Part shown: positions 5,798-30,490 of the stretch, one piece after another
Position numbering within the stretch: the first letter of the stretch is position 1
How the letters are laid out: every line of letters begins with the position of its first letter
Assembly: GCA_035948415.1 (NCBI GenBank)
Contig: DASZJD010000022.1
Coordinates: forward strand, 1 to 33,349
Length of the DNA stretch: 33,349 bases
DNA from: Acidimicrobiia bacterium
GTDB taxonomy: Bacteria; Actinomycetota; Acidimicrobiia; IMCC26256; PALSA-555
Direction of reading: 5' to 3'
Made by a program: the position numbers and the translations under genes
Notes under the pieces: generated by a model
Seen by the model: the letters and a program-made list of their open reading frames with translations, nothing else
Database searches by the model: none
Told to the model about the DNA's origin: nothing

Positions 5798-7938
<2,141 letters not shown>

Positions 7939-7939
<1 letters not shown>

Positions 7940-8388
7940 TGGTCGACCGGTCGAAGGTCGGGCTCCAGGACGAGCCCGCGACGATGCCCATCGAGCGGGG
8001 CAAGATCCGAGAGTTCGCTCGGGCCTGTAAGACGACGAACCCGGCCTACGTCGACGACCCGACGCCGGTGTCGCCGCCGACGTTCCTCACCACCGTGAAC
8101 TTCTGGAGCGGCGGCGGCACGTCCCCGCTGCAGCGCCTCGACATCGACCTGCGCCGCCTGCTACACGGCGGCCAGGAGTACGTGTTCCACGGGCCGCCCC
8201 CACGAGCCGGGACCGAGCTCACCTTCCAGACCCGCGTCGACCAGATCTACGAGAAGGAAGGACGCCGGGGAGGCACGATGACGTTCATCGAGACGGTCAC
8301 CGAGTTCCGCGACCCGGAGGGCACCCTCGTCGCCGAGGCCCGCTCGACCGCGATCGAGACCGGACAAGCACCGACGGCGGGAGGCTGA
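7939..8388 (+). CDS. MaoC-like N-terminal dehydratase domain protein (HadA/HadC type, 149 aa)
   Basis: Hotdog-fold protein resembling the non-catalytic partner (HadA or HadC) of mycobacterial-type (3R)-hydroxyacyl dehydratases. It has the family start DRSKVGLQDEPATMPIERGK, the segment FARACKTTNPAYVDD, PPTFLTTVNFW, a central LHGGQEYVFHGPPPRAGTEL, and a C-terminal strand ending VAEARSTAIET. The catalytic Asp/His motif of R-hydratases is absent here, as in known HadA/HadC subunits, and is present in the next gene. ATG 7939 shares its A with the ligA stop, and GGAAGGAG lies 5 nt upstream. It very likely forms a heterodimer with the product of the following gene and acts on hydroxyacyl-CoA or hydroxyacyl-ACP. 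Which pathway it serves cannot be told from the sequence. Confidence 0.85.
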
Positions 8389-8390
8389 CG

Positions 8391-8807
8391 ATGGTGGCGT
8401 GGGACGAGCTGACCGAGGGCACGAAGGCACCGAGACGCGAGTACGGGCCGCTCACCCGCACCGACTTCGTCCGCTACCAGGGCGCGTCGGGCGACTTCAA
8501 CCCGATCCACCACGACGAGGAGTTCGCCAAGTCGGCGGGCTTCCCGACCGTGTTCTCGGTCGGGATGCTCCAGGCCGGGATCCTCGGCTGCTACTGCACC
8601 GAGTGGCTCGGCGCCGAGAACGTGCGGCGGTTCTCGGTCCAGTTCCGGGAGCAGGTGTGGCCGGGCGACCACCTCGTGTGCGAGGCGACGGTCCGTCGAC
8701 GCTCCGAGGAGGACGGCGAACGCCGCGTGGAGCTCCAGCTGCTCGTCACCCGCCAGGAGAGCGGCGGCGCCGCGATCAAGGGCGAGGCCACGTTCGCGGT
8801 CCCGTGA
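8391..8807 (+). CDS. MaoC-family dehydratase, catalytic subunit (HadB type, 138 aa)
   Basis: Hotdog-fold hydratase/dehydratase. The catalytic motif GDFNPIHHDEEFA places Asp35 and His40, followed by AGFPTVFSVGMLQAGIL, typical of HadB/MaoC proteins. Expected chemistry is reversible hydration of trans-2-enoyl thioesters. The gene starts 2 nt after the preceding stop, with GGGAGG upstream of ATG 8391, so the two subunits are made together. Ribosomal coupling back to ligA suggests the whole set is one transcript. Fatty-acid synthesis and fatty-acid oxidation are both possible roles. Confidence 0.88.
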   Translation: MVAWDELTEGTKAPRREYGPLTRTDFVRYQGASGDFNPIHHDEEFAKSAGFPTVFSVGMLQAGILGCYCTEWLGAENVRRFSVQFREQVWPGDHLVCEATVRRRSEEDGERRVELQLLVTRQESGGAAIKGEATFAVP

Positions 8808-28012: not shown

Positions 28013-29041
28013 ATGGCTGCGTCCATCTACTACGACGGCGACGCTGACCTCGCCCTGCTCGAGGGCCGGAGGGTCGCCGTCCTCGGCTACGGGTCGCAGG
28101 GACACGCGCACGCGCTGAACCTGCGCGACTCCGGGGTCGACGTGCGCGTCGGGCTCCGGGACGGGTCTCGCTCCTGGGCCAAGGCCGAGGAGGCGGGCCT
28201 GCGGGTGCTCTCGACCGCCGACGCGGTCAAGGAGGCCGACGTCATCATGGTCCTGCTCCCGGACACCGAGCAGGCCCTCGTCTACGAGCGCGACATCGCG
28301 CCGAACCTCGAGGACCGCGACTCCCTGGCCTTCGCCCACGGGTTCAACATCCACTTCGGGCAGATCAAGCCGCCGTCGGGCGTCGACGTCTGGATGATCG
28401 CACCGAAGGGGCCGGGTCACCTTGTCCGGCGCACCTTCGAGGAAGGTGGCGGGGTCCCGTCGCTCGTGGCGGTGTCCGCCGACGAGACCGGGAAGGCCAA
28501 GCAGACCGCGCTCGCCTACGCGAAGGCCATCGGCGCCACCCGGGCCGGCGTGCTCGACACGACCTTCGAGGAGGAGACCGAGACCGACCTCTTCGGGGAG
28601 CAGGTCGTGCTGTGCGGCGGCCTCACCCAGCTCATCATGTCGAGCTACGAGACGCTCGTCGCCGCCGGCTACCAGCCCGAGTCGGCGTACTTCGAGACGC
28701 TGCACGAGGTGAAGCTCATCGTCGACCTCATCTACGAGGGCGGCATCGCGAACATGCGCTACTCGATCTCCGACACCGCGGAGTACGGGGACATGACGCG
28801 AGGCCCGCGGATCATCACCGACGAGACCCGGGCCGAGATGCGACGCATCCTCGACGAGATCCGCGGCGGCAGCTTCGCCAAGGAGTGGATCCTCGAGAAC
28901 AAGGCGGGACGGCCGGTGTTCAACGCCCTGCGGCGGCGCGCCGCCGAGCACCCGATCGAGGAGGTCGGCGAGCGGCTGCGGGCGATGATGCCCTGGATCG
29001 GCCAGGGGAAGGCTCGACCCCAAGACGTGTCCGGCGGCTGA
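28013..29041 (+). CDS. ilvC: Ketol-acid reductoisomerase IlvC, class I (342 aa)
   Basis: Converts acetolactate or acetohydroxybutyrate to the dihydroxy acids used by IlvD, with Mg and a nicotinamide cofactor. The Rossmann motif is [20 protein letters not shown], followed by [10 protein letters not shown]. The Arg and Ser residues of that loop are those that bind the NADPH phosphate in this family. The all-helical knotted domain carries the metal ligands in [18 protein letters not shown] and in [18 protein letters not shown], and SISDTAEYG follows. Length is typical of class I enzymes. The plsY-like gene starts 10 nt downstream in the same direction. Confidence 0.97.
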
Positions 29042-29051
29042 CGGGCCTCCG

Positions 29052-29657
29052 GTGAGCGACCCGCTGACGGTCGCAGCCGCCGTCGGGGCCGGCTACGGGC
29101 TCGGCACCTTCCCCACCGCGGTCCTCGTCACCCGGGCCGCGACGCGAGGCCGGGTGGACATCCGGGCGGTCGGGACCGGCAACCCGGGCGGCCTCAACAC
29201 CGCCCACGTGCTCGGCGCCCGCTGGGGCGCGCTCGTGATGATCGTCGACGCCCTGAAGGGGGCCGCCGCGGGGGTGCTCGGGTGGGTGATCGCCGGACCC
29301 ACCGGCGCCTACGCCGGCGCCACCGCCGCCATCGCCGGCCACATCTGGCCCGTGTGGACGCGCTTCCGCGGCGGCAAGGGCGTCGCCACCTCGGCGGGGT
29401 CGGTGCTGGCGGTGTTCCCGGCCTTCTTCCCGATCGACGCCGGCGTCGCGGCCGCGGGCGCGCTCCGGCTGCGGAACACCGAGCGCGCCATCCGCGTCAG
29501 CTGCACGGTCTGGGTCGTCGCGTCCTTCGCCTGGTGGGCGGCGGCGCTGCCGAACCTCTGGGGGCCGGACCCGACCATCGCCCTGCCGCTGTCCCAGACC
29601 GCCGGCGCGGCCTGCATCCTCGTGAAGTTCTACGAGGCCCGGCGGCGCGACGGGTGA
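29052..29657 (+). CDS. plsY: PlsY-like acyl-phosphate glycerol-3-phosphate acyltransferase, divergent (201 aa)
   Basis: Membrane protein of the PlsY family, which transfers acyl groups from acyl-phosphate to glycerol-3-phosphate. About five hydrophobic segments are seen. Two family blocks are recognisable: AVGTGNPGGLNTAHVLG, matching the S-G-N-x-G-A-T-N region, and GHIWPVWTRFRGGKGVATSAG, matching the G-G-K-G-x-A-T region. In the first block the usual Ala-Thr is Gly-Leu and the usual Arg is not in place. The third family motif (H-x-E-N-I-x-R-L near the C-terminus) is not visible; the protein ends ILVKFYEARRRDG. It may have reduced or changed activity. The GTG start follows the ilvC stop by 10 nt; its stop overlaps the degV GTG by 4 nt. 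Confidence 0.8.
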   Translation: MSDPLTVAAAVGAGYGLGTFPTAVLVTRAATRGRVDIRAVGTGNPGGLNTAHVLGARWGALVMIVDALKGAAAGVLGWVIAGPTGAYAGATAAIAGHIWPVWTRFRGGKGVATSAGSVLAVFPAFFPIDAGVAAAGALRLRNTERAIRVSCTVWVVASFAWWAAALPNLWGPDPTIALPLSQTAGAACILVKFYEARRRDG

Positions 29658-30490
29658 TCGCGCTCGTCACCGACTCGAACGCCTTGCTCCCGGACGACCT
29701 CCGGGCCCGATTCGACGTCGACGTGGTGCCGCTCACCGTCGTCGTGGACGGACGGGCCTACGCCGAGGGCGTCGACCTGACCACGGCCGACTTCTACGCC
29801 CACCTCGCCGCCGGCGCCTCGGTCTCGACCGCGGCGCCGTCGCCGGGGGCATTCGTCGCCGCCTACGAGCGCGCCGCGGCGCGGGGAGCCGACGCCGTCC
29901 TGTCGGTGCACATCGGCTCGAACACGTCGGCCACGCTCGCCAGCGCCCGGCTGGCGGCGCAGGGGGCCGCCATCCCGGTCGAGCTCGTCGACACCGGCAC
30001 CGCGTCCTTCCCGGTGGCGTGCTGCGTCTGGGCCGCCGGGCTCGCCCTCGCGCGCGGGGCGCCCCTGGCCGCTGCGGCCGGCGCCGCCCGGGCCGTCGCC
30101 GGCGAGGTCGGGAACGTGTTCGTCGTCGGGGCCGTCGACCTGGCCCGACGGGGCGGTCGCCTGGGCCGCGACGCCGAGGCCGCCGAGGGGCGGCCCGTCG
30201 TCGCCCTGCGGGGCGGGACGATGGAGGTCGTGGACCGGGCCCACGACGTCGAGGGCGCGGTCCGGGCGATCGGGGCCGAGTTCGGGCGCGCCGCCGCCGG
30301 CCGGCCGATGCGGTGCGGCGTCGGCGACGCCGCCGCCGCCGACCTGGCGGCGCTCCTCGAGGCCGAGCTCGGCGGACGCCCGGAGGTCGTCGACCTCGTC
30401 CGGTACCAGGTCGGCCCGTCGGTGGCCGCGCACACCGGCCTCGGCACCGCCGGCGCGGTCTACTTCCCGGCCGAGCTCGCGGCCTCCTGA
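29654..30490 (+). CDS. DegV/FakB-family fatty-acid-binding protein (278 aa)
   Basis: DegV proteins bind a fatty acid, and FakB members present it to the kinase FakA to make acyl-phosphate. Seen here are IALVTDSNALLPDDL, PLTVVVDGRAYAEGVDL, ASVSTAAPSPGAFVAAY with the ligand-contacting Ser/Thr, HIGSNTSATLASAR, VDTGTASFPVA and GAVDLARRGGRLG. Length is normal. The GTG overlaps the plsY-like stop (GTGA). Because PlsY uses acyl-phosphate, this coupling suggests a shared path for incorporating fatty acids into phospholipid. No FakA (DAK-domain) gene is seen in the window, so the partner kinase would have to be elsewhere. Confidence 0.88.
   Translation: MIALVTDSNALLPDDLRARFDVDVVPLTVVVDGRAYAEGVDLTTADFYAHLAAGASVSTAAPSPGAFVAAYERAAARGADAVLSVHIGSNTSATLASARLAAQGAAIPVELVDTGTASFPVACCVWAAGLALARGAPLAAAAGAARAVAGEVGNVFVVGAVDLARRGGRLGRDAEAAEGRPVVALRGGTMEVVDRAHDVEGAVRAIGAEFGRAAAGRPMRCGVGDAAAADLAALLEAELGGRPEVVDLVRYQVGPSVAAHTGLGTAGAVYFPAELAAS

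Follow-up and report, generated by a model that had tools for sequence, protein, structure and literature searches.

We propose, with about even confidence, that two overlapping genes of an Acidimicrobiia bacterium, plsY-B and degV-B, form a translationally coupled and co-diverged fatty-acyl module that is uncoupled from glycerol 3-phosphate (G3P) and probably from FakA. The genes lie in the stretch of DNA analysed here (the window), which has 33,349 nucleotides and spans all of contig C22 in an assembly of 3.4 Mb and 133 contigs. They encode an integral membrane protein of the PlsY fold and a protein which, judging by its sequence and its model, is a fatty-acid-binding protein of the DegV/FakB fold. 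By alignment, most of the acyl-phosphate site is kept in PlsY-B and the G3P pocket is not. Likewise, DegV-B appears to keep the fatty-acid carboxylate site and to have lost the arginine that docks on FakA and the hydrophobic membrane-inserting loop.

An earlier note, made from the sequence of the window, had described plsY-like and degV-like genes overlapping as GTGA with no FakA gene nearby, and had suggested a dedicated route from scavenged fatty acid to lysophosphatidate. Both parts of the description are confirmed: the stop of plsY-B and the start of degV-B share the four nucleotides (Table 1), and the sole Dak2 (FakA) match of the genome is on another contig, C102. The two genes match PF02660 with 107.4 bits (Pfam cut-off 24.1) and PF02645 with 160.1 bits (Pfam cut-off 27), respectively, and plsY-B starts 10 nt after the end of the upstream ilvC gene. 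A single 4-nt overlap is commonplace in compact genomes; it is the recurrence of the pair, rather than the overlap itself, that goes beyond chance.

Recurrence of the pair

We surveyed 148 genomes of the class, with the gene neighbours in other genomes taken from a rough codon-usage gene-calling script. A PF02660 match is present in 119 of them and a full-length PlsY-B in 28, the latter being set apart by a gap in E-value (1.9e-37, versus 6e-26 for the next, PlsY-A-type, match). DegV-B is found in 16 genomes, intact in 15 (gap 4.1e-53 versus 1.6e-28) and broken in G123. The two genes are adjacent in 13 of the 28 PlsY-B genomes, that is, in 13 of the 148 genomes of the class, and these 13 represent ten family groups (G000, G060, G100, G048, G111, G056, G138, G142, G110, G027, G075, G002 and G123). 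Adjacency limited to this genome is therefore rejected. FakA and PlsX are each encoded in 12 of the 13 pair genomes, FakA being absent from G111 (83% complete) and PlsX from G100 (87% complete), so that the kinase is not consistently lacking where the pair occurs; nor is it confined to genomes with the pair, as FakA is found in 86 of the 148 genomes. When 396 genomes sampled from the phylum were searched, five had PlsY-B at E <=1e-30, every one from the same class and including this genome.

A scan of named genomes, which comprises at least 80 loci and is not a census, added further PlsY-B sequences for the comparisons by locus. Among the matches listed, close named relatives of the window PlsY are mostly metagenome assemblies of Acidimicrobiia and other actinobacteria (e.g. 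L079, 70% identity), and the 46 PlsY-B sequences form one clade in a FastTree phylogeny, with a support of 0.93. Two of them, L080 and L081, were dropped, their plsY-B being identical to those of L030 and L036 (L081, labelled Bifidobacterium breve, is apparently mislabelled). The resulting clade of 44 has a support of 98 in the Shimodaira–Hasegawa-like approximate likelihood ratio test. Three further loci, L036, L048 and L091, in which the contig ends directly after plsY-B, were omitted, leaving 41 testable loci. Among these, degV-B adjoins plsY-B at 23, in the order plsY-degV at 22 and swapped at one (L073, G110), and the exact 4-nt overlap is present in 16 of the 22 pairs with the usual order.

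Within the fetched flanks (about 5-6 kb per side, shorter at contig ends), degV occurs at 24 of the 41 PlsY-B loci versus 2 of the 78 canonical PlsY loci (Fisher p 4e-12, to be taken as a guide only since related species are not independent, which also applies to all the genome counts). It occurs at none of nine sister-group loci and at one of ten other loci, this one being the second module of this genome, named C below. L083, where degV-B is 1.7 kb off on the opposite strand, is counted among the 24 loci and not among the 23. At the plsY-B loci without degV, the 3' neighbours that were typed with Pfam are mutually unrelated (cytochrome bd, GGDEF, ring hydroxylase, methyltransferase).

DegV-B without an adjoining PlsY-B is found in G096, G064 and G019. 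G096 is untestable for adjacency, as its contig ends 153 nt upstream of DegV-B, and the copy in G019 also lacks Thr62 and His270. In G064 (L077, 6118-11528), DegV-B stands away from plsY-B as the final gene of a group that comprises glutaredoxin, radical S-adenosylmethionine/B12, major facilitator superfamily (MFS) and rhodanese/metallo-beta-lactamase genes. We also considered whether the pair could be a pseudogene remnant and rejected this, since each gene has an open frame and the residues typical of the clade are conserved. Decay does occur elsewhere: plsY-B of G068 has an in-frame TAG, and degV-B of G123 is broken across three frames.

Active site of PlsY-B

According to excerpts of the study on Aquifex aeolicus PlsY (PMC5700162), the phosphate of G3P is clamped by Ser35, Arg45, Lys104 and Asn180, the 2-OH of G3P is held by Ser142 and His177, and the acyl-phosphate is held by His92, Thr41 and the Lys104 loop. 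Table 2 of that study gives residual activities of 17% for S35T, 4.75% for T41A, 1.1% for R45A, 0.32% for H177F and 4.6% for N180A. The same excerpts propose a substrate-assisted chemistry, in which the acyl-phosphate itself takes the proton, and report Phe at position 177 in 1.0% of 7,288 homologues, so that such variants exist in databases.

The AlphaFold2 model of PlsY-B has a mean pLDDT (predicted local distance difference test) of 95.6 and aligns with 5xj7, one of the Aquifex structures (PDB 5xj5-5xj9), over 184 residues, with a Z of 24.9 and a root-mean-square deviation of 2.4 (VIA-align), which suggests that the PlsY fold is intact. PlsY-B resembles the Aquifex enzyme in its GGKGVAT loop and in the residues equivalent to Ser35 (Ser or Thr), His92 and Lys104. 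In contrast, it lacks His177, Asn180 and Arg45, and it exhibits an insert in motif 1, with a basic ATRG stretch ahead of this motif, and a new N-x-WGP-x-P loop preceding the final helix. The residues of the window protein at positions 35, 41, 45, 177 and 180 are Thr, Leu, His, Phe and Ala, respectively. The last residue of the model pairs with residue 185 of the 5xj7 chain, which places Phe193 opposite His177 if the final helix is ungapped.

The same division is observed throughout the clade. Residue equivalences and tallies were taken from MAFFT alignments, from which PlsY sequences of <160 aa or >=320 aa were excluded. In the 44 PlsY-B sequences listed, Ser or Thr at position 35 and His92 are present in all 44 and Lys104 in 43, with Arg in the remaining one. 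With regard to the G3P residues, Arg45 is present in 9, Ser142 in 3, His177 in 0 and Asn180 in 3; none of the four is found in 29 sequences, and a single one in the other 15. Position 177 is occupied by Phe in 40 and by Leu in 1, and is not covered in 3. Since the 78 canonical PlsYs used above were picked by their His177 and Asn180, these residues were compared on an unselected set, the 88 PlsYs that belong neither to the clade nor to its sister group, in which R45 is present in 88, S142 in 77, H177 in 80 and N180 in 78. In 33 of the 44 PlsY-B sequences, the last 75 aa contain the W[GA]P motif; with duplicates included, it is found in the last 70 aa of 35 of 46 PlsY-B versus 0 of 88 other PlsYs.

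A further divergent PlsY-like group branches near PlsY-B in the tree (L022, L043, L024, L015, L021, L040, L052, L049 and L050). In these nine loci, the position of His92 is occupied by Asn or Gln in six, Asn180 is present in none, and degV is adjacent in none.

Fatty-acid and docking sites of DegV-B

In FakB1, according to excerpts of PMC8892158, the carboxylate of the fatty acid is contacted by Thr62, Ser95, Ser171 and His270, and Arg173 is required in the kinase mechanism. In the same excerpts, Arg205 is described as the key residue for FakA binding and for the encounter with the membrane, 'completely conserved' in FakB, and a hydrophobic helix inserts into the bilayer. We placed the FakB1 positions through an alignment of FakB1 with DegV-A, the DegV of this genome encoded on contig C94; the letters at positions 62, 95, 121, 158, 171, 173, 180 and 205 match the numbering in those excerpts.

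The AlphaFold2 model of DegV-B (mean pLDDT 94.5) aligns with 2dt8 with a Z of 34.3 and with FakB1 (5uto) with a Z of 32.3 (VIA-align). As in FakB1 and FakB2, the equivalents of Thr62, Ser95, His270 and Arg173 are present; unlike in these proteins, Arg205 and the basic segment surrounding it are replaced by acidic or neutral residues, and the membrane-inserting loop is short and polar.

These features were compared between 25 DegV-B and 25 other DegVs, sequences of <240 aa being excluded. Thr62 is present in 23 of the 25 DegV-B, Ser95 in 24, Arg173 in 24 and His270 in 23, versus 25 of the 25 others for each of the four. Arg205 is present in a single DegV-B versus 23 of the 25 others, and the net charge around this position is -2.72 in DegV-B versus +3.32 in the others. 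The loop between GGR and KP has 15 residues in 25 of the 25 others, with a mean hydropathy of 0.95; in DegV-B, it is polar and has 6-17 residues (11 in 11 of the 25), with a mean hydropathy of -0.06. The control set also contains the DegVs of L133 and L149 and DegV-C of this genome, which are described below. The identity threshold placed the DegV of L094 in the same set, and this protein branches with DegV-B and likewise lacks Arg205, so the control count for Arg205 is, if anything, understated. On these alignments, DegV-B should still bind a fatty acid, and it is not likely to share the mode of docking on FakA, or of loading at the bare membrane, described for FakB1.

As a separate observation, residues 123-126 of DegV-B (30020-30031) are Cys-Cys-Val-Trp, a stretch found in 16 of the 25 DegV-B and in none of the 25 other DegVs.

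Paralogues and a second plsY-degV module

The genome has three PF02660 matches (C55, 132.6 bits; C22, the window, 104.9 bits; C66, 83.7 bits) and three PF02645 matches (C94, 263.1 bits; C66, 190.3 bits; C22, 159.5 bits). We refer to the PlsY of C55 and the DegV of C94 as A, to the window pair as B, and to the C66 pair as C. PlsY-A has the G3P residues, DegV-A has Arg205, and their genes are unlinked; plsY-B is a divergent paralogue of this canonical PlsY gene. FakA and PlsX are both encoded on C102, about 6 kb apart, and both score over their cut-offs (FakA 558 bits against YloV, PlsX 276 bits against TIGR00182). The possibility that FakA is missing from this genome was thus rejected, and because FakA is encoded on C102, the lack of a FakA gene beside the pair has no bearing on whether the cell has one. 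The proteins belong to the same families as those of the Firmicutes PlsX/FakAB/PlsY pathway described in excerpts of PMC12594616, with FakA and PlsX sharing one contig here. In contrast to that pathway, the paired proteins are non-canonical, and the genes for the PlsY and the DegV that have the canonical residues lie elsewhere, unlinked to each other.

The NCBIfam cut-offs fail to separate the paralogues of this genome, for both the PlsY and the DegV models. Against the TIGR00023 equivalog (cut-off 137.2), PlsY-B scores 82.9 bits, and the canonical-looking PlsY, with 124.5 bits, is likewise below. Against the FakB1 equivalog (cut-off 350), DegV-B scores 59 bits, and the DegV that has every one of the FakB residues, with 167.5 bits, is likewise below.

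Module C resembles the window pair in that a divergent PlsY and a DegV are encoded with translational overlaps, and in that His177 is lost and His92 is kept. On C66, plsY-C, an MFS transporter gene and degV-C are joined by two GTGA overlaps. The differences are the MFS gene in between, a separate PlsY clade and the retention of Asn180. PlsY-C is found in 19 of the 58 genomes of the order, this genome (L009) included, and degV-C is beside plsY-C in 18 of these 19. In 16 of the 18, degV-C is downstream on the same strand, with the MFS gene in between in 14 (the MFS match of L200 being split in two) and without it in L202 and L207. In L205 and L206, degV-C, read only in part, is divergent and upstream, and the MFS gene is downstream. 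In L208, no degV-C is present in the fetched stretch around plsY-C. PlsY-C exhibits His92 in 19 of 19 sequences and His177 in none, and DegV-C exhibits Thr62, Ser95, Arg173 and His270 in 16 of 16 and Arg205 in 2 of 16. Read from the alignments, two PlsY clades, each paired with a DegV, have shifted in a similar direction, with the acyl-phosphate histidine and the fatty-acid residues kept and the G3P histidine and the FakA arginine lost.

Pairs with canonical residues also exist. In L133 (4159-5555, a 'Frankiales' assembly) and L149 (about 1290-2800, Spirochaetaceae), a DegV with Arg205 is encoded beside a PlsY with His177 and Asn180. These represent an ordinary FakB-PlsY linkage, the kind of pair that the earlier note had in mind.

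Table 1 Features of the window pair, its upstream neighbour and module C. Positions refer to the window unless another sequence is given; residue roles are those described in excerpts of the papers cited.
Feature	Sequence	Position	Strand	Basis
ilvC (ketol-acid reductoisomerase)	window	28013..29041	+	TIGR00465, 462.7 bits
plsY-B, PlsY-fold integral membrane protein, 201 aa, GTG start	window	29052..29657	+	PF02660
Thr42 codon, Ser35 equivalent (phosphate clamp)	window	29175..29177	+	Ser/Thr in 44/44
His52 codon, Arg45 equivalent (G3P phosphate clamp), lost	window	29205..29207	+	alignment; role from PMC5700162
His97 codon, His92 equivalent (acyl-phosphate binding)	window	29340..29342	+	retained in 44/44
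Lys109 codon, Lys104 equivalent, GGKGVAT loop	window	29376..29378	+	Lys in 43/44
Loop residues 164-176 between the final two helices, clade-specific N-x-WGP-x-P	window	29541..29579	+	helix ends of the model
Phe193 codon, His177 equivalent (binds G3P 2-OH)	window	29628..29630	+	no His in 44/44
Ala196 codon, Asn180 equivalent (G3P phosphate clamp)	window	29637..29639	+	Asn in 3/44
GTGA overlap, degV-B start and plsY-B stop	window	29654..29657	+	sequence
degV-B, DegV/FakB-fold protein, fatty-acid-binding by sequence and model, 278 aa, GTG start	window	29654..30490	+	PF02645
Thr59 codon, FakB1 Thr62 equivalent (carboxylate network), retained	window	29828..29830	+	alignment
Ser92 codon, FakB1 Ser95 equivalent (carboxylate network), retained	window	29927..29929	+	alignment
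Arg169 codon, FakB1 Arg173 equivalent, retained	window	30158..30160	+	alignment
Short polar loop of 11 residues, where FakB1 has a 15-residue hydrophobic stretch with the membrane-inserting helix	window	30161..30193	+	alignment; role from PMC8892158
His197 codon, FakB1 Arg205 equivalent (FakA binding, membrane encounter), lost	window	30242..30244	+	alignment; role from PMC8892158
His260 codon, FakB1 His270 equivalent (carboxylate network), retained	window	30431..30433	+	alignment
plsY-C	L009 (C66)	8094-8696	minus	sequence
MFS transporter gene between plsY-C and degV-C	L009 (C66)	6856-8097	minus	sequence
degV-C	L009 (C66)	6023-6859	minus	sequence

Alternative interpretations

Several observations weigh against a co-diverged module that has left G3P and FakA. 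The acyl-phosphate site itself is not entirely kept: Thr41 is present in 6 of the 44 PlsY-B sequences, the remainder exhibiting L, A, M, F, V or I, and because this residue is mostly lost, the use of acyl-phosphate by PlsY-B is uncertain. Among the G3P residues, position 142 is weak evidence, as Ser is found there in just 52.6% of homologues according to excerpts of PMC5700162, and this position and the extreme C-terminus are the least certain parts of the alignments. PlsY-C retains Asn180 in 19 of 19 sequences and Arg45 in 13 of 19, so its pocket is altered differently and less. In DegV-B, Arg173, which belongs to the kinase mechanism, is retained, and with FakA encoded in nearly all pair genomes, DegV-B may still use FakA. 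Finally, PlsY-B often occurs without DegV-B, and 18 of the 41 testable loci have no adjacent degV. Along the tree of these 41 rows, the presence of the neighbour changes 11 times, compared with a mean of 13.7 for shuffled labels, and was as low in 46 of 500 shuffles; at least four of the 11 changes are forced by well-supported branches. Hence degV-B has been repeatedly lost or gained within the PlsY-B clade, and the tree is no strong argument for or against the link between the two genes. A stronger clustering obtained with 73 rows (11 changes versus a shuffled mean of 19.8) was dropped, as these shuffles included rows other than PlsY-B.

The dedicated route of the earlier note would have DegV-B act as a FakB, handing scavenged fatty acid to FakA, with PlsY-B acylating G3P from the resulting acyl-phosphate in a remodelled pocket. 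The gene pair stands as a recurrent unit; the FakB-FakA-PlsY route ending in lysophosphatidate is unsupported, because mutation of the G3P residues that PlsY-B lacks nearly abolishes the activity of Aquifex PlsY and because Arg205, which DegV-B lacks, is key for FakA binding. At the positions where H177F, N180A and R45A leave the residual activities quoted above from PMC5700162, Phe, Ala and His are found in the window protein, Arg205 is absent from 24 of 25 DegV-B, and 24 of the 28 PlsY-B genomes have another PF02660 match. Nevertheless, FakA and PlsX accompany the pair in 12 of 13 genomes each, Arg173, the acyl-phosphate loop and Ser/Thr35 are retained, a replacement arginine could come from the basic ATRG insert that precedes motif 1, and L133 and L149 demonstrate that pairs with all the canonical residues exist. 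We consider this route unlikely, with perhaps one chance in a handful of being correct.

This route is also favoured by G110 and G138, in each of which PlsY-B is the only PF02660 match and no PlsB is found, as would fit an acyltransferase role; G110 is a single contig and 99% complete. The view that PlsY-B is merely the sole PlsY of its genomes was rejected on the basis of the 24 genomes with at least one other match. PlsB (PF19277) was found in 0 of the 21 genomes tested. In the same class, G014, G023, G040 and G004 have neither a PF02660 match nor a PF19277 PlsB, and G114, from the family group of G110, is absent from the list of PF02660 matches and has no PF19277 PlsB; four of these five genomes encode PlsX, G040 being the one that does not. 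Another first acyltransferase, not recognised by PF02660 or PF19277 in these five genomes, probably exists in the class. As genomes without PF02660 likewise lack PlsB, PlsY-B need not fill the role of first acyltransferase.

Slightly less likely still is a non-catalytic pair acting as sensor or scaffold, in which PlsY-B would bind acyl-phosphate and DegV-B fatty acid to report on or buffer the acyl pool, perhaps modulating the canonical PlsY. The loss of the G3P residues and, mostly, of Thr41 in a retained fold would fit such a pair, as would its coexistence with another PF02660 protein in most PlsY-B genomes. However, the acyl-phosphate loop residues are near-invariant, suggesting that chemistry, or at least binding, has been under selection, and no recurrent regulator gene was seen beside the pair in the rough gene calls. 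An incidental adjacency, in which both genes lie last in a gene group with ilvC and drifted without a common function, appears very improbable to us. It would be consistent with the loci that lack an adjacent degV, with the scatter of this neighbour in the clade, barely less than that of shuffled labels, and with ilvC lying next to plsY-B on its 5' side in many of the order's genomes. Against it stand the five loci read from other orders (L032, L046, L073, L074 and L075), where the two genes are still paired away from ilvC and once in swapped order, the enrichment of degV in the PlsY-B flanks relative to the canonical ones, and the second pairing, of PlsY-C with DegV-C.

Proposed function and implications

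In the fatty-acyl module that we favour, acyl-phosphate from PlsX, or from FakA acting with an ordinary DegV, would enter PlsY-B, whose substrate-assisted chemistry may hand the acyl group over to water or to some acceptor that is not G3P. Such a transfer is conceivable because the acyl-phosphate would still be bound and G3P would no longer be positioned. DegV-B would dock on PlsY-B rather than on FakA or the bare membrane. At this membrane partner of its own, it would pick up the released fatty acid and carry it off, or deliver one.

The usual picture of PlsY is that of a single enzyme which catalyses a single reaction and is a target for antibacterials; DegV proteins are usually regarded as FakB subunits. 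In the open-licence literature searched, no description of such a divergent PlsY-DegV pair was found. The pair suggests that bacterial fatty-acid handling has a branch yet to be characterised, and automatic annotation may mislabel the proteins of these clades as PlsY and FakB. As a more tentative proposal, which we hold at somewhat below even confidence, there could be a new acyl-phosphate branch, in which PlsY-fold proteins take acyl-phosphate and not G3P and have their own DegV partner off FakA, a pairing that would have arisen at least twice in the class (B and C). The two proteins are small, which makes an uncharacterised use of acyl-phosphate or fatty acid directly testable. If the proposal is true, DegV proteins would be dedicated fatty-acid carriers for PlsY-like membrane enzymes, beyond their role with fatty acid kinase.

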